From Nemopilema nomurai (Eukaryota; Cnidaria; Scyphozoa; Rhizostomeae; Rhizostomatidae): a DNA stretch of 64,000 bases. The notes beneath the pieces are model-generated. The model was not told the origin of the DNA. It did no database searches and was given only the letters and a program-made list of their open reading frames with translations. The position numbers and the translations under genes are program-made. The stretch covers positions 62,001 through 126,000 of the forward strand of contig ML133438.1 in NCBI GenBank assembly GCA_003864495.1, written 5' to 3'. Shown here piece by piece: positions 39,804 to 51,802 of this stretch; within the stretch, counting starts at the first letter, position 1, and every line of letters starts with the position of its first letter.

Positions 39804-42800
39804 CTAAAATTCCAAATCGAATTCAAAATCCACAGCGCTTTTAAAAGAAGGATATGAATAATATGGATTGTTGAAATCGATATTAAAATCAAGATAGGGA
39901 GTGTCTTTAGACATGAGCGTTTCCAGCTGCTGCTTGACTGTTGAAAAGCATGGCCTCTGCTTAGGGTTCTCTTGCCAGCAATGGAGCATCAACGAGTATC
40001 TGAAACAAAGGCCAGGAATTACAGCGATGATTGAACATCAGTCCTGTTATACAAAAACAATGTACTGATTATAAGGCAAAATTAATTTTTTAGAAAATAA
40101 TTAGGGTTGCTGGTGCTATACAAAATGAAATAGTAAATTGTAAGTATAAACAGTTTTAAAGTTTGTATAATCCCATCTACGTAGAAAAATGCCGAAGGTA
40201 TAAACGGGTGAAGTGAATCAAACAGCAGAAAGCACAGAGCTTAAAGATCAATTCTCTAACAAAAGAGACACCAGCCTTCTTTGTCCATTCCCTATCTGTT
40301 ACTGCAATACACTGCATAGTTTCGGACTAGTTAGGTACAAATGTCTTCTCTGAAACTCCTATGCAGAAAACTGGGTAGGCGGTTCCAGTACTTTTCCATG
40401 CTGAAAACTGACCAACCGTTGTTGTCTTGTTGTAAATAGACATAAGACGGGTTCTTAAAGAACTATTTTAATCAATGGTCGAATAATGAATTTTCAAGTA
40501 TTTCGATCGTATTCAGATCACATGAAAAGTGTTCATACATTTCTTCAGAGCAGTTTTCTGGCCTTTCCATCCGTCCACCAGACTTTAAAAAGTTTACTGT
40601 CTCTAGGGCTGTCATTGCCGAGTATGGAGCACCTCCTAAAAGAAAAAAAAACACCTCTTCATACATTAGCATACATCTTCCTTAATCTTCTCACATCTTT
40701 ATTTGTATCTGGAAATGGAAGGCTTTGAATCAGATAAGAGCATAACGCGTTAAGATAATGAGACTTAATAGAGAATGAAAGGTATAAGGTAAGTGAAAAT
40801 TGGCAAAAGTATGAAATGTTTCAAAAAGATTAGAAAGGACAACTCCCTGCTCTAGAGATACAAAAGATACAAAAGAATAAGTAATTTCCTCTATACCAGA
40901 GGTTCGGTCCCATCTCCTTATTTCAGCATTGAAGATAAAGGGTCTCTTCGTAACCTGAATATGGGATGCGCTTCTATCTAAAAAGCCTCCCACAAACTTG
41001 AAGACGCATCCTATGCGTCTGCAGAAAGCTTCTGCTTTCAGTAAATGTTGTGAGATATATTCATTTCTTACAAAACATGTAATGCTTTATCAAAATGAAT
41101 GGAATTGGCATGATTTGCGGTTCATAAGCATTCGAGCAAGTGTGAATACTTTGAAAAGGGGTCAACACAACGTACCTAATGTTACCAACTCAAACAGTAC
41201 AACGCCAAAAGACCAGCTGAAACGTAAAGACAAAAGATGGCACATTTGTCTCAAATCAATTGTGGAAAGGCTTTAAATGTTCGGATAAGCAGCTTCAGAT
41301 TAAGCAAGTATAAATATCGCTTGGTACTAAAGTTAAGCTCCATAATACACAAAAGTAGCGAATGTTTATTCCTTTTTGAAAAGGTGCAAATAATAGTGTC
41401 TTGTTTGCTAATGGATAATTTATCATATCCTTTTTATATACTACTACTTATTAAGACAAAATTTCCGAAAATAACAGATTTCACATGCTTCCCAGAAAAT
41501 TCACTAAAATAGCTTTCATTTCAACTTCAAAAATGTTAACTTGTTAGGTTGAATTCTCTGTTTTAGCCTTGGTCAGCTTTCGTTTGTCCTCCTTTGATCA
41601 GTTGTATTTGAGCAATAACCAAGCCCTTTTCTGGAGAAAAGCAAATTCAAATGATTTGAAATTTAGATGCTACCTTCAGAGAATAAATATCTATACTTAA
41701 GACCCAAAGAAACAGCAGGCATTCAGGTCGCTAATGGAATCAAAATGATATAATCATATTTATTGTGCTGCTGCAACTTACACATCAGAAAGCTTTGAAA
41801 ATATTCGGTTAATTATTGCTTCGATTGGCATCCATTTGATCGGAAGCTTGTGGCAGTCTTTTGTAACATATGTATTCTCAGCGTCTAAAAATCGACTTAA
41901 TCCAAAATCAGCAATCTTGCAAGACTGATTTGGCCCCAAAAGAACATTTCTCGCAGCGAGATCACGATGAACTATATTCTTGAATGCTATGTATTCCTAG
42001 CAAACAAAATTATAATCTTATTTTAAGAACAACTAAATTAAAGTATTTGTTATAAAAGTTTTTCTGCACATCTTAATAAGCTGTAACTCTTCACTACAAA
42101 GTAAACACTTCTCGATATTTCTATCTCAAAGTTGAGCTCATTTTTACCATGCTTTCTAAACTGGTACATACTGATCAAAATATTTTAACAAAAATCATTT
42201 ATTCAGCCAAACACGTTTTACTTAAAAATTCTCGTCCACAAGGGTTTAGAAAAAGCTGTACGTTTGGGGGTTCACGCTTAGATAATGCCATGAATACAAA
42301 AATCAAAATGCCCACCATTCCACGTGATATCTGCCACGCAATTCTAAGCAGGTCGGTTGTCGTTAAACTCAATGCATTCTGATCAATCGGCTCCAAGTAA
42401 TCTGAACCTTTCTGCCAATGAATAATAGTTTTTTTCTGTTCAGCATTGGATAAGCAATGACATTCTTGACTTATTCATAAGAAATTATATTCAAGGAGAA
42501 ACGAAAATTCTAATGTTTGACAGAATTCAAATCTATGAATCTATGATCATTTTTCTAACTTGGATGAATGTTTAAAGCAACCACCTCACAGCACAGTTTT
42601 GGAAAAAGTTGGTTTAACCAGCCAACGGTCATTGATGGAAATCATAAACTTATTATAGACTGTCGCATGACTATAGTTGATAAGCAATAAGAATAAACTT
42701 TGCGATACTGTGTCTCATAGGCCTTTATCAATTCTATGAAAACCTTTTCAACATTTACTTTATCAATAGACAGTTGTAGAGCAATACATTTAAATTACAA

Positions 42801-43746
42801 GTTTCGATAATGCTTTGAAAAACAAGGAAGAAATTTTTAATGCCTTCACTATTTTAGTATCTGAAATGTAATTCAGTTACTTGCTTTTTTAAATTTTGGT
42901 GCTATGCCTTCCAAGCTCCTGTGAAACCTTAGCAGTGAAGGAAAGCAGCGGAGTAAAGTGTTCTGGCTTCTTGGGCAGCTATTCTCTTGAATTCCGTCTG
43001 CAGACTTACTAATTACTGTAGACTCACTAAGTACACACTGGTCAAGACTCATTAAGTAATCAAATTCGAACAAAGCTCTGCTAAAGTAAATAAGCATACT
43101 TGAATGGTTTAATCCTAGTTTGACCTTGCAAATAACTTTTCAATCAAGGCCATAGTTTATAGGAGCGATTCAACAAACGCGTAACATGACAAACAGAAAA
43201 CTCTGGAAAATGGATCTGTCACCTGCGACTGAATCCGCGCCCTCTCTTTTCGGAGGCACTGAAGCAAGCTTCCGTGTTCCATAAATTCTATGACCAGACA
43301 TGGCAACAGCTCTTTTGTAATACATCCAAGCATTGCAACAACATTGTCGTGGAAACCAAGATGCTTCATCAGCTCAATTTCATTTAACAGATCCGATTGT
43401 TGTTGACTGTTTGCAGTACCTTTGAAGAATAATCATAGATACACCAACATGGATTTGCTAAATAGACTTATTGAAAGAAGACCAATAAAACAGTTGAAAA
43501 ATCACCATAGAATCAAAGTGATACCAGTAATTCTTCTAAGCTGTGGTTTATGCAAAGTATTAGGACAAACCTTCCACAATCTTGACCGCTACCTTCCTGT
43601 TTTGAGCGAATAAAGTTTTAGCTGACTGCCATGATTTGCATTGCAGCAGTTTGGCCGTGTACACTACCCCAAAAGCACCAGTTCCAAGGACCTCCCCCAA
43701 TTCTATGTTCGTCCTTGAAAGCTCCCATGGGTCATGGTTGTCATCA
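39804..43746 (-). other. Tyrosine kinase domain exons
   Basis: Seven exons carry all kinase subdomains: GTGAFGVVY, KVAVKIVEG, NEIELMKHLGFHDNVV, hinge EFMEHGSLLQCL, HRDLAARN, IADFGLSR, SDVWSFGVVLFELVTLG, GGAPYSAM and CWQENPKQRP. The insert between the two hinge-region helices is short. A single Tyr (NTYVTKDC) lies in the activation loop where FGFRs have a YY pair. Confidence 0.92.
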
Positions 43747-46700
43747 CTGCAATTTCAATTCCGCAGTTTGTCAATAAGGGATGTAATTGCTAAAATTCCA
43801 CAGTGATAAAAGAGTAACTGCCTTGAGGCATTTTTGGGGAGAGAAGGGATGAGCCAAGTTCAGTTTTCCGTAAATCTTTCAATCATAAATCCTCTTCAAT
43901 TTGACAGCGAGATTATCAAGCAATTGCTAAAAAAAAATTTCGATGTAGCAGAGAATTATCTTCTGGTCATATTGTTGCAGTACCATAGAACCGAAGTTGG
44001 GTGAAAGCATTTCTTTCAGCAACTATCGCATACCATACTTTCAAAGTAAACTTGTCGAGTTTGGCTTAAAACATGGAAGTTTCTCAAAAGCCAAACGAGC
44101 AATGAGATCCAGCTGAACCATGCAGCTAATAATCCTGTCAAAAGCTTTGCCACATATTGTAATAATCATTTACAGAGTTTGCATAATCATTTATCATAAT
44201 CAATTTATCATTTTTGCATAATCAAGATGTGTTTGCATAATGATTTAGCATCATTCAACATTGAAGGACCATTTCCATTCATTGAGAGCATGCCAATTTC
44301 AATATGTTTACAGTAGTGTTTATATCTTTTAGAGACATCAAATGTCAAATTTTTTCAGCTAATATTTCCGCCTTTCCAGAAAACACTTTCCACTTTGTGC
44401 TATACATATATATACTTAACCTGTCTGATGTACGCGTAGTAATGTTTTTCCCATTGACAGCTTTTCTTCTTCTTTTCACTCTTACTCTTATCACAAAGAT
44501 GAGAAGAAGAGCAAAAAGAAATGCTGCTCCAATCGACATTCCTATAGTCATGGCATCTGAAATGTGCATCGAATTAAAAACTCAAAGAAATAGTAAAATC
44601 TAATTAGACCAGAAGTCTCGTCACTTCTTGGAATACTGGGTAGAAAGTAACAATTTCAATTCTATAATGTTAATATTTTCGAATCTTCTTTCTTAATGAC
44701 GTTTTTACAAGTTGCTAGCTAAAACTTAGCCTAACGTATCAAAGAAACCTAGAATTCAGATTCACTTCAATATATGTACAATAAACATAGGCAGAATCTA
44801 GCAACAATAAGCCCTAGAATACATTTCATAATGATTTCCATATGTTTAGAAAAATGAATCATTACCTGGTTCTCTGTTGCTGTTGATTTTATCTAAGAAA
44901 AAACTGCGTCAATACCTTAAGAAAATATTTTAATATAGTTTCGAAAGCTAACGAATAATGCAATATACAGTTTTTTTCATTTTATTTTTTTCTTAATCTA
45001 TGTTTGTTGAGTTCTTTGTTACATAATCATTTTTGACAGGAAGCGCAAAATATAGCAAATGTATCAAAAAGATCAGTTGTGTGAGAATCAAGCTCTGTTC
45101 TCAGTAATCTTATACAACTAATTAGAGTGCTTTCTACTCTAAAACACCGCAGGCTGGTTAAAGTAAGACATGGACTTCATTTACCATGATCAAAAGCCTA
45201 CATAAGAGATTCGCATACCTGGCAAAATCTGTCTGTACTTGATTGCAAATGAAACGTGTCCATTTCTTTTTTGTGCAAAATACCGCACTGTCGCAAATCT
45301 GTTTGGCACATTAAGAACAGGTAGTGTAATTGTCTCACAGTACCTGGCGACAGTACGCGAAGAGGCACTGGGCCCGTTCAGTACTTGCAGGTTGTGCTCT
45401 GTGCAATTGGGTTTTTCAGGTAATTGCATGTTGGTGAAGATCAGTCTGATGTGGTGGCCTTCGTCAACAGTGATTCGCCATAAGCAGTCGATCTGCTTGG
45501 CTCTGTACACGGAAGACGACTTAATCTCTCCACTTGGTTGTCTGAATCTCCACTCACATGCTATGAACAAGCAATAAAGGTTATCTAGAATATGGATGAC
45601 CTACTTCACCCTGAGCCTGCGAAGAGGAGAGAGAGGATTGGCAAAAGCACAAGGTCAAGAAATATCTCGAAATTAATATCAATATCAGCATTTGAAGCAA
45701 TAAATTCAGTATTTGAATTAGCTAGAATGCATTTGATCAACGCGACACTTCCTGAACATTCCTGAATATAATAATCGTTCGAAAAGTTTTCTTTGAAACA
45801 AGTCTCATTGCACTGGACAGCAAATGATATATTTACAAATTTAGTGTTTATTTACAAAGTGTTCAACTATCATATAATGATCAAACGATGACATAACTAA
45901 TGTAGCAAGCTTCTTACAGGCAAACAGAGATCTCAGCTTTGCTTGCTGGACGTTTGCTCAGAATGACTTTTCAAATTATATTCAGCACACTTTAAAAGTT
46001 AGCACATGCACAAACATGTAAGCAAGATGCTCTTACATCTTTTTATCAGGGTATTCTTGTATCTGGTCTCATTCGCTGCCCTGTCCAGCTGACCAAATTC
46101 ACAGTAACAGCTGTTGGCATCTATTTCGTCAACCGTCGCGGCATCAGCAACAGCGTCATGTTTGTTTCTGATCGTTGAGCAGGCTTTGTAGCATTCCTGT
46201 TCACGGCCATGTCTACGGATGCTTTTTCTGCTAACAGATACACCTTTTCCTGTATGCCACTGTGGAGCCTGAAGGATCTCTACAACACAAGGCAACGCCT
46301 TCAGTGCTTGGTTTAGGCACTTTGCAAACAGAAGGTGTGATGTATGATTCCGGCGTACTTTATAAGTGCTAGAAAAAGCGGAACTATTTTTCGCATACTT
46401 AAAAGTACTTTTTTCGTCCGACACTCCTCAGAGTATGCAAACGTCGTATAATTGGGCAAGCTAGGTCGTCCTTTCACCTAGGTGTTTTGGAGTCTGTCTA
46501 TATTTCAATGGAAAATCCCATTCTTTGTAGACAGAAAAAGTTCGTCTTTTCCCTTGGGCTCTTCTAAAGTGAGGTATTAAGTAACGCAGATTGGTCAATT
46601 ATAACCAATCACGCGCTCTGCTTATCACCCTCTAGTGTTTTCGATCCGCATCTGGCTATTTATTCGGTCAGTTTTTGGTTATCTTCCGACGTTTGCATAC

Positions 46701-48273
46701 TGAGGAGTGTCGGACGAAAAAAGTACTTTTAAGTATGCGAAAAATAGTTCCGCTTTTTCTAGCAATTGTGAAGTTTTGTACCACAAAGCACTTGTTCACA
46801 TACTTTATAAGTGTAAAAACAAATAGGTAAATAAACCTTATAAACTTTAAAAACCAGCAGATAAAAGCTGCTAGTTTTCCACTGTGATAACATAATTACG
46901 TGCAAACTTCTAATATTCTTTAGATTTTCCCATTCCTTTTTCACTAACGATTTCTGCTCAGTGCAAGATGACCAAACACTAAACTAGTATATCGTTTGGT
47001 GAATGGTATTATTTGGTGTTCTTAACTCAATGTACATCACTACTCTTCTAGTCGATGACAGTTCTAATGAGCTTTATGGAAAGACTTCATTATAGAAACT
47101 GAAAGGTAACGCTTCGTACCGTAATCAATGACCGCATTTTGGTAAGAATCTGAAAATTGCCTCCCAACCTGGCCATATATGCAAATACATAGCCCGTCGT
47201 TAACACCCAAGCCATAATTCACTCCATCAGGCAAATTGGAATGACTGTTCGGCGTCCTGGCACACTGGTAATAACAGTCATTAGGCTGCCTAAAATTTCC
47301 GATGTAAGAGAAGAAGGGACCCTCTGAAGTGTAGCCATTGAATCCCCAGAAACTGCCGGCCCATTTCGGAAGTAACGGTACATAGACAGCAGACTCTTCA
47401 TCTACATCGAAAAAAAAATTTCTTTAACAGGTCCTACTTGAATACAATCAATGAGAGAATAAAGTAATTTCATTTATAAATTAAAGCAGTCTCATTTCAT
47501 AATTAAAGTAGTAATTTTCTACTCGTTATTTCACAAGATTCAAAATAACTTTCTACGACAATTGTAAGCTCCAAACCACGAACAATTCTCTTTTATATTT
47601 CATCAAAGTATTTTGTGTCAGAACAATCCGACAACCCCAAGTACAAACCATGCATGAAATCTGACGAAACTCAAAAATGGGGGAGGACAACATTTTCAAA
47701 TTCTGTAGCTCAATGTGTAATAATTTAAAAAGCCTTTTTAACAAACTTCAAAAAGGTAAAATTAGCTGGAATGTTTGGGCATGTTCGTTGCTCTACTAAC
47801 TTACAGTTTATATTTGCATTGATCCAACCAAGTCCTCTAACTTCTCTTCCAGTCTGACCGATTTGACATACACAATAACGCTGACTCGCAAAGTACGAGA
47901 CGCCATTAGGAGTCTTCCCTTCCTGGGTCAAGCCTTTACAAAACTGATAGCACTGCTTCTTATTGTCGACGAAAGTGGACTTAGAACTCTTTCCACCCGT
48001 TCCTATACCATCATGCCACGGCACTGATTCTGTTTTTGTATGAAAAGTAAAGTCACAGGGCTTGAATGGAGTTTGTAGAGAAGCGTGGGAGAAAGATTAA
48101 AAGAGCTTCGTCCAGCAATGTAAATTCTTTGTGAATATGACTGATGGGACTTGTAGCACATGTAATTAAGACAGATTAGTCTTTTTATAAGCAATGAACA
48201 TACCCTGGGGAAGAGTGTCCTCCAAGATGAAGATCACAAACAGCCACGTATAAGCTATTGAGTATCGCTGCAT
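39804..48273 (-). CDS. Receptor tyrosine kinase: three CYxxC modules, CUB, TM, kinase
   Basis: Single-pass receptor kinase predicted to phosphorylate tyrosines after extracellular ligand binding. Fourteen exons: 48273-48204, 48029-47805, 47401-47120, 46249-46037, 45560-45219, 44892-44866, 44556-44421, 43746-43571, 43419-43223, 42411-42316, 41996-41782, 41216-41176, 40635-40539, 39999-39804. They total 2313 nt, in frame throughout, 770 residues. Signal peptide 1-23; Cys-rich modules about 24-98, 99-192 and 193-263; CUB about 264-377; TM about 389-410. Kinase: GTGAFG loop near 453, VAVK Lys near 487, HRDLAARN near 598, DFG near 618, SDVWSFG, and CWQENPKQRP near the end. All catalytic residues are present, so it should be active. 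The APE motif reads PIE (KWMPIEAI). The tail holds NPYY and other Tyr. Kinase is FGFR/RET-like by eye; orthology not assigned. Confidence 0.94.
44178..44241. repeat. Short repeats of tttgcataat
   Basis: Three copies (near 44178, 44214 and 44232) among related octamer-like fragments, in an RTK intron. AT-rich and possibly chance; could be an enhancer-like cluster. Confidence 0.3.
45219..45560 (-). other. CUB domain exon of the RTK
   Basis: One 342-nt phase 1-1 exon with four Cys in CUB spacing (CEWRF, IDCLWRI, KPNCTEH, ARYCET), the hydrophobic pattern HHIRLIFTNMQL, and an FAIKYRQ end typical of the last CUB strand. CUB domains mediate protein binding in extracellular receptors. Confidence 0.8.
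46037..48029 (-). other. Three tandem Cys-rich (WSC/PAN-like) modules of the RTK
   Basis: Each of exons 48029-47805, 47401-47120 and 46249-46037 encodes one module with the pattern CYxxC, a variable gap, then CxC followed by G-Q-x-x-x-R (QCYQFCKG...YCVCQIGQTGR; DCYYQCAR...LCICIYGQVGR; ECYKACST...SCYCEFGQLDR). Modules 1 and 2 also share NGVSY/DGVNY between the Cys groups. All three exons are phase 1-1. The layout resembles WSC carbohydrate-binding or PAN folds but is not a clear match to either. Confidence 0.75.
46369..46762. mobile_element. MITE-like element with ~75-bp terminal inverted repeats
   Basis: Bases 46373-46446 and 46687-46758 are inverted copies, near perfect over about 74 bp with one 2-bp indel; both ends read gaaaaagcggaac inward. 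CTAG flanks each end (a CTAG or TA target duplication; it is palindromic, so the two cannot be told apart). About 390 bp in total, with no open frame for a transposase in the core. It lies in the RTK intron between modules 2 and 3. A 12-mer actttataagtg abuts the left end and recurs about 40 bp beyond the right end. Confidence 0.82.
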
Positions 48274-50027
48274 CGTTTGAGGAATTTTCACACTCGCTCA
48301 AGGTAAGACTGAAGCATCAATACGTGGCCAGGGATATCAACTGTTTCACTGCAAGCAAACAAGGAGGAACCTAGCTTTGTAGTTATTTTATTATCTAGGC
48401 CACATCACGATTATCAACATTTGTTAATTCTAAACCTATGCAACCTTCATCTTTGCACAATTAAATTTAAAGGATTGGAAATTTTAACAAGGTAAACCAA
48501 CTAAAATTTCTAGCTGACATGCAGGTCTCTAGCTGAAAATCTCTACTCTAAAGTAATGTTAATAATTATTAGATATTTACAAAGTGGGGTGTTATTGCTG
48601 ATCACAAGAGCACTAAAATTTCAGGCGTTCAATGAATGGATCGAGTTCTGTCCATTCCGGTTATGGACATCATTCTTATGCACCCCCTGACTAAGCTCAT
48701 GGCTAAAAACATAAATGCTGTCGATGGCATTTCAATTTGTAGCTGTAATTCCGTGCAAATACTGCATATATGCAGCAGCTATGAAGGCTAAAAATTGAAC
48801 TTACATCCCTAAAAAATGAGATCACCTCCAATCACGCAGCAAGTTCTGCAGAATGGTTAACTACCACTCGAGGGGACAAAATTCCCGCCAATCTAGCGAG
48901 AGCCTGACGTAATTAGCCCGCTAGCCAACTCATTAATCCTATTTAAGTGAAAATTCTCATCTAAATTTTCATTTTAGATGCAGAATTCCATCCTAAACTT
49001 TGTGCAAATTCTTCACCCTATGCTGTGCGTTGTTGTAAAACAAATCTGTTGTGCCGAGTAGAATTCAACAGCTTTTTTGGACGCTTATTTGCCCGTCTGA
49101 TTATATTTCCTGGCTTTGCAGTCATTTCGCAGCCATTTCGGCAATAGTTCACAGAAACTGAGAGAAGAAAGCAAATTAGTTAATTAGTTATTGCTATATT
49201 AAAGCCAAATCATGCCCTGTAATGTCAGCATTTTCCCTATTTCAACTAATGAATTTGAAAAGTATACTCATTAATAATTACTGATGTGAGGCTAAAAAGA
49301 AGCTTTCTGTGAAAAATTTATGTCAATCGATTTCCCCAATTCAAGACCCAGGTGAGCTGCTTTTCAGGGTAAACCTGGGGGCAATTATCTGTGAATATCC
49401 TGCAGTCACAAGTGACATTGTTGAAAATAATAGATAGGGAATCGTTTCGGCGTCCATTCAAAAGAATCGTTTGCCTCACTCCCGAGGCAGCCTCGGTCCT
49501 GACACGGCGGTTACATTCCAAATGCTATATTCCGTTGACCCGTGTGCAATTTTCTAGTTCTTTTGTTGAATTGCTGTGATTTTTTCGGTTTCAACAAGAA
49601 TGAAGTTATACAGCTGGTTAGGGGATTAGAATTTATTTATAGTAGAAAGAAATGTAATAGAGTTGTTTGATTTGAAGCTACAAGGACATATTACTGCAAA
49701 AAAAACTGATAATAGAAGTAAAGAGAGGCCACAGCTTTCTGCTTTGCTATAGAAATCTATTCTTGGAAGTTGCTTTTTGGAGTAAACAGGAAAACACAGA
49801 TACACAACCACAGCCATTTAAAAAGACAGGCAGATATCACGTTTCATTCTTTTAGTCACAATCATCTGATAGAATTAACTTGTTTTAACTTGAATTATGT
49901 CCCTGTTCGCAATATTTGCTTAGGATATCTGCCTTCGGGTTCCTTGGAATGCTGAACAATAACGACCATCGCAACATGTCGGGTGCAGAGAATAAACAGT
50001 TGGCCAAAAGGTGGACTTGATTGCATC
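48274..50027. other. Intergenic between RTK 5' end and GPCR start
   Basis: Divergent promoter region for the minus-strand RTK and the plus-strand GPCR. A 67-codon minus-strand frame at 49318-49521 has two Cys pairs but no splice or family support. No motif was recognised with confidence. Confidence 0.5.
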
Positions 50028-51802
50028 ATGGATTCGAACACGACGATGGATGGTCTTCATTTGGTACCGAACTTCGCCAACACGCCACTGCTCATTTTGA
50101 CTTTCCTTGTTATCATTACGTCATTAACTGGCAACACTCTCCTGCTCTACACACTCTACAAAGTAATGACATTGAGAATGACATCATCCCATCTTGTGGT
50201 CAATCTAGCAATCGTCGACTTCCTGGCTGCCACTTTCATTTTACCAACAATTTTTGTGACGCTCCTCGCACGCGGATGGAACCTCAGTAGGAATGCTTGT
50301 ATCGCTGCAGGATTTTTCGATGCGGTTCTCACGAAGGCCCAAATAATGGCTCTTCTCAACATTGGCATTAACCGGTACACCGCCGTGCACTACCCAACGT
50401 TTTACGCGACTACCAAGAACAGACGGATCTCAAAGAGGCTTGTTCTTATCGGTTGGCTGTACTCGCTCGCATGGAGCCTGCCCCCAATCTTTGGCGTAGG
50501 CTCCTATTCACATGAGCAGCAAAAATTATTCTGTGGTCTAGACTGGAGTGGGGCACGTATTTATGGGGTGCTACACATGGCGCTTGGCTTTGTCGTACCA
50601 AGCTGCGCGGGCCTCGTTATCTACACTAAAGTTCTTTTGACCGTATTCAGACACGTCCGAGAGGTTGGTGTGAGCGGTGGAGAGCAGCAGATCTCGACAG
50701 GAAAGGCTTCAGATGACCAAAAGGGCGGCACTAGTGTGAGTATGACTTGCGGTGGAGTGACTGATTGTAAATAAACAGGGAAGCAATAATTATGCATCGG
50801 CTGCAGAGAGAGTCACATCAGTTGTGTTTACCTAGAGTTGGATAAAATATAGAGCAGGGGTAATCGGATGGAGAAACAATAAAAATGGGGATAGGCTTTC
50901 AGTTTAAGCGAAGGGAGTGCATTGCCAAACTACCATGCCCTCAAATAGAATATTCTTTTTGCAGCAACTGGCCATGGGAATGATATAAGGCAGTGCCATA
51001 TTGTAGGACAGGATCCATAGGGGGAATTTTTTACTCAGACACTGAGAAATGAGAAAGAAATTTTCAAACTTATTGTGCCCAGGTATTGAGTCCTGGTAAT
51101 GATGTGATGACAAAAATCAGTATTGATCTTTTCATGGAAAGAAAAATTATAGCTATAGAAAAGAGAAAAGCATTCTGTAAACAAGACAGCATCCCTGAAT
51201 CCACTGTCTGTTTTAAAAACTTTTCCAACGGCTCACTAAGTTGTGACAAAAATGAATCTAACGAAGAATATGTATTCCTTTAAAATGACTTGCTTTACAA
51301 TTTGTGATTTTTCTCTTGATGATTCTCAAATAAAAGGTGCAGTAAACATGTTTTTGTGCTAATTATATATGAGATCAAAGTTGCAAGAAGAATTAAAGAA
51401 TTTGACAGCGAGCATTCATCGCATCCTTGTTTGCAGTTTGGAGCCGCAAGATTGGGAAACAAGCTTAAGGATCCAGAAGAACAGGCCAGGGAAAATGACG
51501 TGAAATCTAGAAGAATGACGATCATGGTGATCAGGGCCAAGAAGGAGCGACAAGATAGGCAGTTGAACCAAATTACCAAGGTGTTTCTTATCATCGTATT
51601 AACGTTTGCTGTTTGCTGGGTACCAAGAGGAGTCGCAAACATTTGGGCCTTGGTAGGCCAAAGAGACGACATACCCCTTTCGTTGGATATCTCTTCGACA
51701 ATTCTGATCTTCAGCACCTGTGCAATAAACCCGGTTGTGTATGGATACTATCGCACTGACATCAGGCAAGGCTTCAAAACTGTTCTTTGCTGTTATCGTT
51801 GA
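50028..51802 (+). CDS. Rhodopsin-class GPCR, melatonin-receptor-like features
   Basis: Two exons: 50028-50735, with donor GTGAGT in phase 0, and 51374-51802 to the stop; 378 residues. TM1 SLTGNTLLLYTL, TM2 NLAIVDFLAA, TM3 INRYTAVHYP (NRY replaces DRY), TM4 with Trp, ECL2 Cys, a third loop cut by the intron with a charged insert (KDPEEQAREN, KKERQDRQ), TM6 FAVCWVPRG, TM7 NPVVYGYY and a C-terminal CCYR that may be palmitoylated. NRY and the xVYG end of TM7 are features of melatonin receptors; ligand and subfamily are inferred weakly. The ATG at 50028 opens MDSNTTMDG with an N-glycosylation site; an in-frame upstream GTG was not chosen. The acceptor before 51374 has a weak pyrimidine tract. Confidence 0.9.

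Follow-up and report, generated by a model that had tools for sequence, protein, structure and literature searches.

A receptor tyrosine kinase gene of the scyphozoan Nemopilema nomurai with three predicted PAN-fold modules and a CUB domain in its ectodomain

A stretch of 64,000 nucleotides (nt) from contig ML133438.1 of the scyphozoan Nemopilema nomurai (assembly GCA_003864495.1, positions 62,001 to 126,000; hereinafter the window) carries on its minus strand a receptor tyrosine kinase (RTK) gene with an unusual ectodomain. The encoded domain order is signal peptide, three cysteine-rich modules of the pattern C-Y-x2-C...C-x-C, CUB domain, transmembrane segment and tyrosine kinase. Taken as a whole, the findings are best explained by an old RTK that probably exchanged its ectodomain for three PAN-fold modules and a CUB domain and would now read a matrix or glycan cue. 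Computation supports the structure of the gene, the order of its domains, the motifs and kinship of the kinase, and the family and predicted fold of the modules; the swap itself, expression, the ligand, dimerisation and the signalling output are inferred.

Gene model and domain content

We rebuilt the gene (48273-39804; C72:101804-110273 in the genome) independently from the minus strand. The ATG begins at 48273 and the stop codon finishes at 39804; the 14 exons form a single frame whose sole stop is terminal, all 13 introns have GT-AG borders, and introns 1-6 share phase 1, the usual intron phase of shuffled extracellular modules. The features are listed in window coordinates.

48204..48273, minus strand: exon 1, translation start and signal peptide (MQRYSIAYTWLFVIFILEDTLPQ), phase 1 end; from translation and splice sites, signal peptide by eye
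47805..48029, minus strand: exon 2, module 1, CYQFC...CVC, GQTGR, phase 1-1
47120..47401, minus strand: exon 3, module 2, CYYQC...CIC, GQVGR, phase 1-1; most divergent of the three
46037..46279 (alternative start 46357), minus strand: exon 4, module 3, CYKAC...CYC, GQLDR, phase 1-1; by sequence homology to the module on contig C19
45219..45560, minus strand: exon 5, CUB domain, phase 1-1; PF00431, E 1.8e-14 for the exon alone
44866..44892, minus strand: exon 6, 9-residue juxtamembrane linker (27 nt), phase 1-1; from frame and splice sites only
44421..44556, minus strand: exon 7, transmembrane helix and basic stop-transfer sequence (TIGMSIGAAFLFALLLIFVIRVRVKRRRK); by eye
43571..43746, minus strand: exon 8, kinase N-lobe with GTGAFG loop and VAVK lysine
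43223..43419, minus strand: exon 9, kinase alpha-C (NEIELM) up to the hinge
42316..42411, minus strand: exon 10, kinase insert and alpha-E
41782..41996, minus strand: exon 11, HRDLAARN, DFG and activation loop; genome kinase match C72:103781-103996
41176..41216, minus strand: exon 12, WSFGVVLFELVTLG
40539..40635, minus strand: exon 13, kinase C-lobe
39804..39999, minus strand: exon 14, kinase end, tail PYLDFNIDFNNPYYSYPSF and stop
46357..46774, no strand assigned: element in intron 3 resembling a miniature inverted-repeat transposable element (MITE), arms 46357-46431 and 46700-46774, 75 nt each and 96% complementary

Exon 4 probably starts at 46279, giving a coding length of 2343 nt or 780 amino acids (aa), rather than at 46357, giving 2421 nt or 806 aa. 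With the acceptor at 46279 the exon opens just ahead of the module, as exons 2 and 3 do, leaving four cysteines in each module and four in the CUB domain. The acceptor at 46357 adds 26 residues, including 2 extra cysteines, and sits at the end of one inverted-repeat arm. Two further acceptors were rejected, 46368 for a broken frame and 46306, which stays in frame (789 aa), for the absence, by eye, of a pyrimidine tract. The MITE-like element extends to the upstream one of the two candidate acceptors, its end overlapping that at 46357, and may provide an alternative splice site for exon 4. An Rfam scan of the window gave 0 matches.

In the 806-aa version of the protein, Pfam identifies the CUB domain (PF00431, E 6.6e-13 in the whole protein and 2.3e-14 on exons 5-6) and the tyrosine kinase (PF07714, E 5.1e-86), the latter over profile positions 1-258 of 258 and with the motifs GTGAFG, VAVK, NEIELM, HRDLAARN, DFGLS and WMPIEA. 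The whole-protein Pfam search gives no match in any of the three module exons and no C-type lectin, cadherin or Kringle match in the ectodomain; NCBIfam also gives 0 matches to the ectodomain, which carries little weight because that library was made for prokaryotes. The top rows of a PDB sequence search are an EGFR entry, followed by RET, FGFR and PDGFR. With signal peptide and transmembrane helix assigned by eye, the predicted protein is a single-pass RTK, complete in sequence, comprising signal peptide, ectodomain, one transmembrane helix and a cytoplasmic tyrosine kinase.

A previous sequence-only reading of the window had described this RTK gene, and its strand, borders, 14 exons and unbroken frame from signal peptide to stop are borne out by our rebuild. 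The profile coverage and catalytic motifs also agree with its call of a full-length kinase, as do the three module patterns (CYQFC/CVC, CYYQC/CIC, CYKAC/CYC) with its shared cysteine arrangement; its view that the ectodomain differs from those of classical RTK families stands, no classical RTK ectodomain being matched in Pfam. Our rebuild did not yield its coding length of 2313 nt, and the module end motif that it gave as G-Q-x-x-x-R is in fact G-Q-x-x-R (GQTGR, GQVGR, GQLDR).

The module family and its predicted fold

Each module contains four cysteines, arranged as C-x3-C followed by C-x-C, and closes on the shared G-Q-x-x-R motif. The sequence-only reading had proposed searching for further copies, and such copies occur on contigs C137, C19, C88 and C94 of the same genome. 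Searching with module 1 brings up copies on C137 and C19 (best E 5.0e-9, C137). A search with one of the C19 copies gives 20 places at E <= 1, itself counted: 12 in C137, 3 in C19, 2 in C88, 1 in C94, and modules 1 (E 1.8e-6) and 3 (E 1.1e-6) of the RTK gene. These E values place the likeness of modules 1 and 3 to the copies beyond chance. Another, weak match, on C71, was put down to chance (E 0.44; interrupted by one stop).

The surroundings of the copies were read from exon proximity alone, using open reading frames and Pfam on examples. Copies on C137 alternate with TSP1 exons, those on C19 lie among F5/8-type and FN2 exons, and EGF-like exons lie close to the copies on C88 and C94 by eye, making glycan or secreted-ligand binding by the modules plausible. 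Among the kinase matches listed for the genome, none is near another module copy, and the RTK gene is the only place seen that joins module and kinase.

The contigs have further features of their own. On C137 (G000:C137:1461915-1489417) several of the 12 copies are identical by eye and spaced about 0.9 kb apart, which suggests recent tandem duplication or, in part, assembly haplotypes. Between its F5/8-type exons, from 4058812 on, C19 carries a long minisatellite with more than one open frame (read as WFPFCLFATHLVSFLFICNSFGFLSVYLQLI repeats). The module and EGF-like exons on C88 are accompanied by another cysteine-rich exon, which by eye resembles a uromodulin-type D8C.

A profile of 11 modules retrieves 35 database proteins at E <= 0.01 from 241 candidates; 31 of them have ENA among their sources, and the set comprises proteins of 49-139 aa, many on long contigs and none with a descriptive name. 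The comparison with WSC, PAN and Kringle families that had also been proposed gave no match: the Pfam models of these families hit 0 of 38 module-family members (HMMER filters drop most matches above E 0.1). The WSC model (PF01822) finds 31 places at E <= 0.01 in the same genome. Aligned by hhalign to a profile of 15 WSC copies of the genome, the module scores a probability of 0.7%, against 0.1-1.0% for six column-shuffled controls. At profile level, an assignment of the module to WSC, PAN or Kringle by sequence is ruled out; kinship with PAN and WSC is accepted at fold level only.

Structures were predicted for modules 1 and 2, and module 3 was placed by sequence homology to the C19 module. 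Both predictions adopt a PAN fold of a sheet and one helix, and by prediction the module is no new fold but a divergent form of the PAN/apple type, its core cysteines being of WSC type. The core cysteines of the HGF PAN domain lie at 70, 74, 84 and 96 (PMC9249922), a spacing from which the C-x3-C and C-x-C of the module depart. The KREMEN1 WSC domain has core disulfides C147-C167 and C151-C169 and outer disulfides C122-C186 and C190-C198 (PMC5014086). The module shares the WSC core C-x3-C...C-x-C, with 21 residues ahead of C-x-C versus 15 in KREMEN1, and with four cysteines only it lacks the two outer disulfides. The structure comparison listed no KREMEN chain, which carries no weight either way.

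Kinase relatives and known receptors

Of 7960 candidates scored against the kinase part, 6081 matched at E 1e-20, and the counts of relatives given here rest on the best 120 of them. The first seven rows (P0039-P0045) carry 2-4 kinase stretches each (three in P0045, one of them weak), and their top scores are sums for this reason. The next rows are mostly cnidarian (Hydractinia, Hydra, Porites, Pocillopora, Oculina) amid other invertebrates, followed by vertebrate RET. The precomputed Pfam accessions of these relatives indicate varied ectodomains, with FN3, C-type lectin, EGF, matrixin, PAN and CUB among them.

A pattern search for the tail motif, which hit 3 places in the genome and 0 in its reversed control, brought up a second gene, on C31, that adjoins kinase matches. 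In a 28-row tree, made of 26 rows hand-picked from the 120 listed plus the query and C31 and including no P0039-P0045 row, the query, C31 and the metagenome protein P0046 form a clade (98/95), and the three RET rows are separate (100/100). A quick tree of 47 rows, with P0041 and P0045 included, again places the query with P0046 (Shimodaira-Hasegawa-like approximate likelihood ratio test 81; no starred set). Four kinase introns, compared by eye, have identical codon and phase in the query and C31, and matches of the query protein to 9.9 kb of C31 are confined to kinase and tail. A by-eye impression of a cysteine-rich/FN3-like ectodomain in C31 was dropped as unsupported (best E 0.017). By sequence comparison, the kinase belongs among invertebrate RTKs with widely varying ectodomains, apart from RET; the lack of a Pfam cadherin match in the ectodomain and the separate RET rows both speak against a RET identity.

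Two groups of relatives resemble the receptor in part. A Hydra RTK (P0120, annotated 'Kit'-related) has extracellular PAN repeats (precomputed PF00024, PF08276 and PF14295) and the tail NNYYSVPSF; unlike in the Nemopilema protein, its PAN sequence gives Pfam matches, no CUB is listed and its kinase groups with other Hydra RTKs. Two Oculina patagonica RTKs (P0108, P0109) share an extracellular CUB (PF00431) but run, by eye, CUB, CUB, Ig-like, CUB, without the modules. Uniting the query in one clade with the Oculina CUB-RTKs (p-AU 0.003, approximately unbiased test) or with the Hydra PAN-RTK (p-AU 3.2e-5) was rejected. Because these receptors form no clade with the query kinase, PAN-type and CUB-type ectodomains look separately acquired; alternatively, they may have been lost from a common ancestor.

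For a cnidarian RTK whose lectin-like domains are shared with secreted proteins, the closest described precedent that we found is Sweet Tooth of Hydra (Reidling et al. 2000). As far as the available portions of the sources go, its lectin-like ectodomain is foreign to RTKs and its SWT domain also occurs in kinase-less secreted proteins, as the module here appears to do (PMC3531485, PMC2680970). Those portions mention no PAN-like module or CUB. The receptor described here has no Pfam match to C-type lectin, the kind of domain that marks the ectodomain of a Sweet Tooth-type RTK. KREMEN1 (Kringle-WSC-CUB-transmembrane) likewise has a PAN-like WSC domain adjoining a CUB, with the C-x3-C...C-x-C pattern (PMC5014086); it differs in its Kringle, its two additional WSC disulfides and its lack of a kinase, the present RTK having a kinase and no Kringle. 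The PAN domains of plasminogen and HGF and the apple domains of kallikrein and factor XI differ in being on ligands or proteases, not receptors.

Searches of an open-licence library listed no paper whose title or opening of the abstract names the module or its domain order, and the domain order is absent from our ectodomain and kinase searches of one protein collection (best 120 for the kinase). The combination of three modules, CUB and kinase was not found in these searches; RTK ectodomain swapping is already known. The sequence-only reading had called the ectodomain possibly undescribed. The module indeed lacks a Pfam name, but its predicted fold is not new, and the kinase is not isolated, lying among invertebrate RTKs with variable ectodomains.

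Elsewhere in the genome, arrays of tyrosine-kinase exon matches occur at G000:C5 (at least 8 places) and G000:C149 (at least 11 places), which suggests a large tandem kinase expansion. The window also contains, at 49956-50774 on the plus strand, a 272-aa open frame with a rhodopsin-type G-protein-coupled receptor domain (PF00001, E 1.1e-34), about 1.7 kb past the RTK start and on the opposite strand.

Proposed origin and working of the receptor

Phase 1-1 exon shuffling would have replaced the ectodomain of an RTK with three PAN-fold, WSC-like modules and then a CUB domain, the modules coming from secreted lectin- and matrix-type proteins, where other copies appear to lie. Alone or with the CUB, the modules would bind a glycan or protein ligand fixed in, or released from, extracellular matrix or mucus, and this ligand would pair two receptors. 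The paired kinases would phosphorylate each other on the activation-loop tyrosine, YLEP in the insert, and PYLDF and PYYSYPSF in the tail, and the phosphorylated sites would recruit SH2/PTB adaptors. Ligand binding, dimerisation and trans-phosphorylation are the working to be expected by analogy with RTKs in general.

Several results weigh against this proposal. The gene model is known from genomic DNA alone, and a search with the whole ectodomain (residues 1-440) gave 0 matches at E 0.001 among 4451 candidates, so that no orthologue with such an ectodomain was found. As to the fold, module 1 reaches a best Foldseek E of 0.024 (0 of 156 rows at 0.001) and module 2 one of 0.37 (0 of 133), its rows from E 2.8 on being unrelated and of low probability, and neither value is significant by itself; the fold of module 2 was predicted from an alignment dominated by other modules, and as query this module matches itself only, with no homologue outside the RTK gene. 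In profile comparison the module is no closer to WSC or PAN than shuffled controls are. As to the kinase, the strict tail YYxVPSF is present in 8 of the 120 relatives, a looser YY/CY tail in 48 and neither in 72, RET rows included; the query tail YYSYPSF (within PYLDFNIDFNNPYYSYPSF) is one residue off the strict form. The query branch is long (1.21, flagged by the program) versus 0.16 in its sister C31, and the C31 ectodomain has no typed domain (best E 0.017) and therefore does not give the ancestral ectodomain.

The most serious alternative, which we regard as possible but do not favour, is a dedicated secreted protein ligand of growth-factor type, with modules and CUB as a protein-protein scaffold, compare PAN in HGF and WSC/CUB in KREMEN. 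PAN domains are reported to mediate protein-protein or carbohydrate-protein contacts (PMC9249922), and in KREMEN1 the Kringle and WSC bind DKK1 and the CUB contacts LRP6 (PMC5014086), while the F5/8-type, TSP1 and FN2 exons near the other module copies point weakly to matrix or glycan instead. More speculatively, and in our view rather unlikely, the receptor would read patterns or matrix through lectin-fold modules taken from secreted lectin/TSP1-type proteins and grafted onto an old RTK. This would be one of several grafts, PAN-type and CUB-type sensors each having been gained repeatedly among related RTKs, and the RTK group would have served early animals as a plug-in sensor platform.

A merger of two adjacent genes, one for a secreted protein of PAN-like modules and CUB and one for an RTK that has a different 5' end, appears very improbable. 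Exon 6, only 27 nt long, rests on frame and splice sites in a model drawn from genomic DNA, and the kinase relatives carry different ectodomains, but the exons all share a strand and span no more than 8.5 kb, with phase 1 in introns 1-6 and a continuous frame, and in the window and its 10-kb flanks the RTK protein matches its own gene only (E 1e-3), with no paralogue and no second kinase 5' end of such kind. We give equally little credence to a decaying or fast-drifting functionless paralogue, for which the end branch of 1.21 versus 0.16 in C31 would reflect lost constraint and the transposon-like inverted repeat extends to the acceptor region of exon 4, since 780 codons run without a frame break, catalytic motifs and splice sites are present, each module keeps its 4 cysteines and the tail is recognisable.

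The ectodomain swap thus favoured would add a clear case to an RTK group in which the kinase stays constant and the sensor changes. The module family indicates a mobile animal domain outside Pfam, for which the predictions give a likely fold. HGF, the ligand of MET, carries PAN; here a predicted PAN fold would lie on the receptor side, and the RTK group offers a natural series for studying how RTKs gain ligands.

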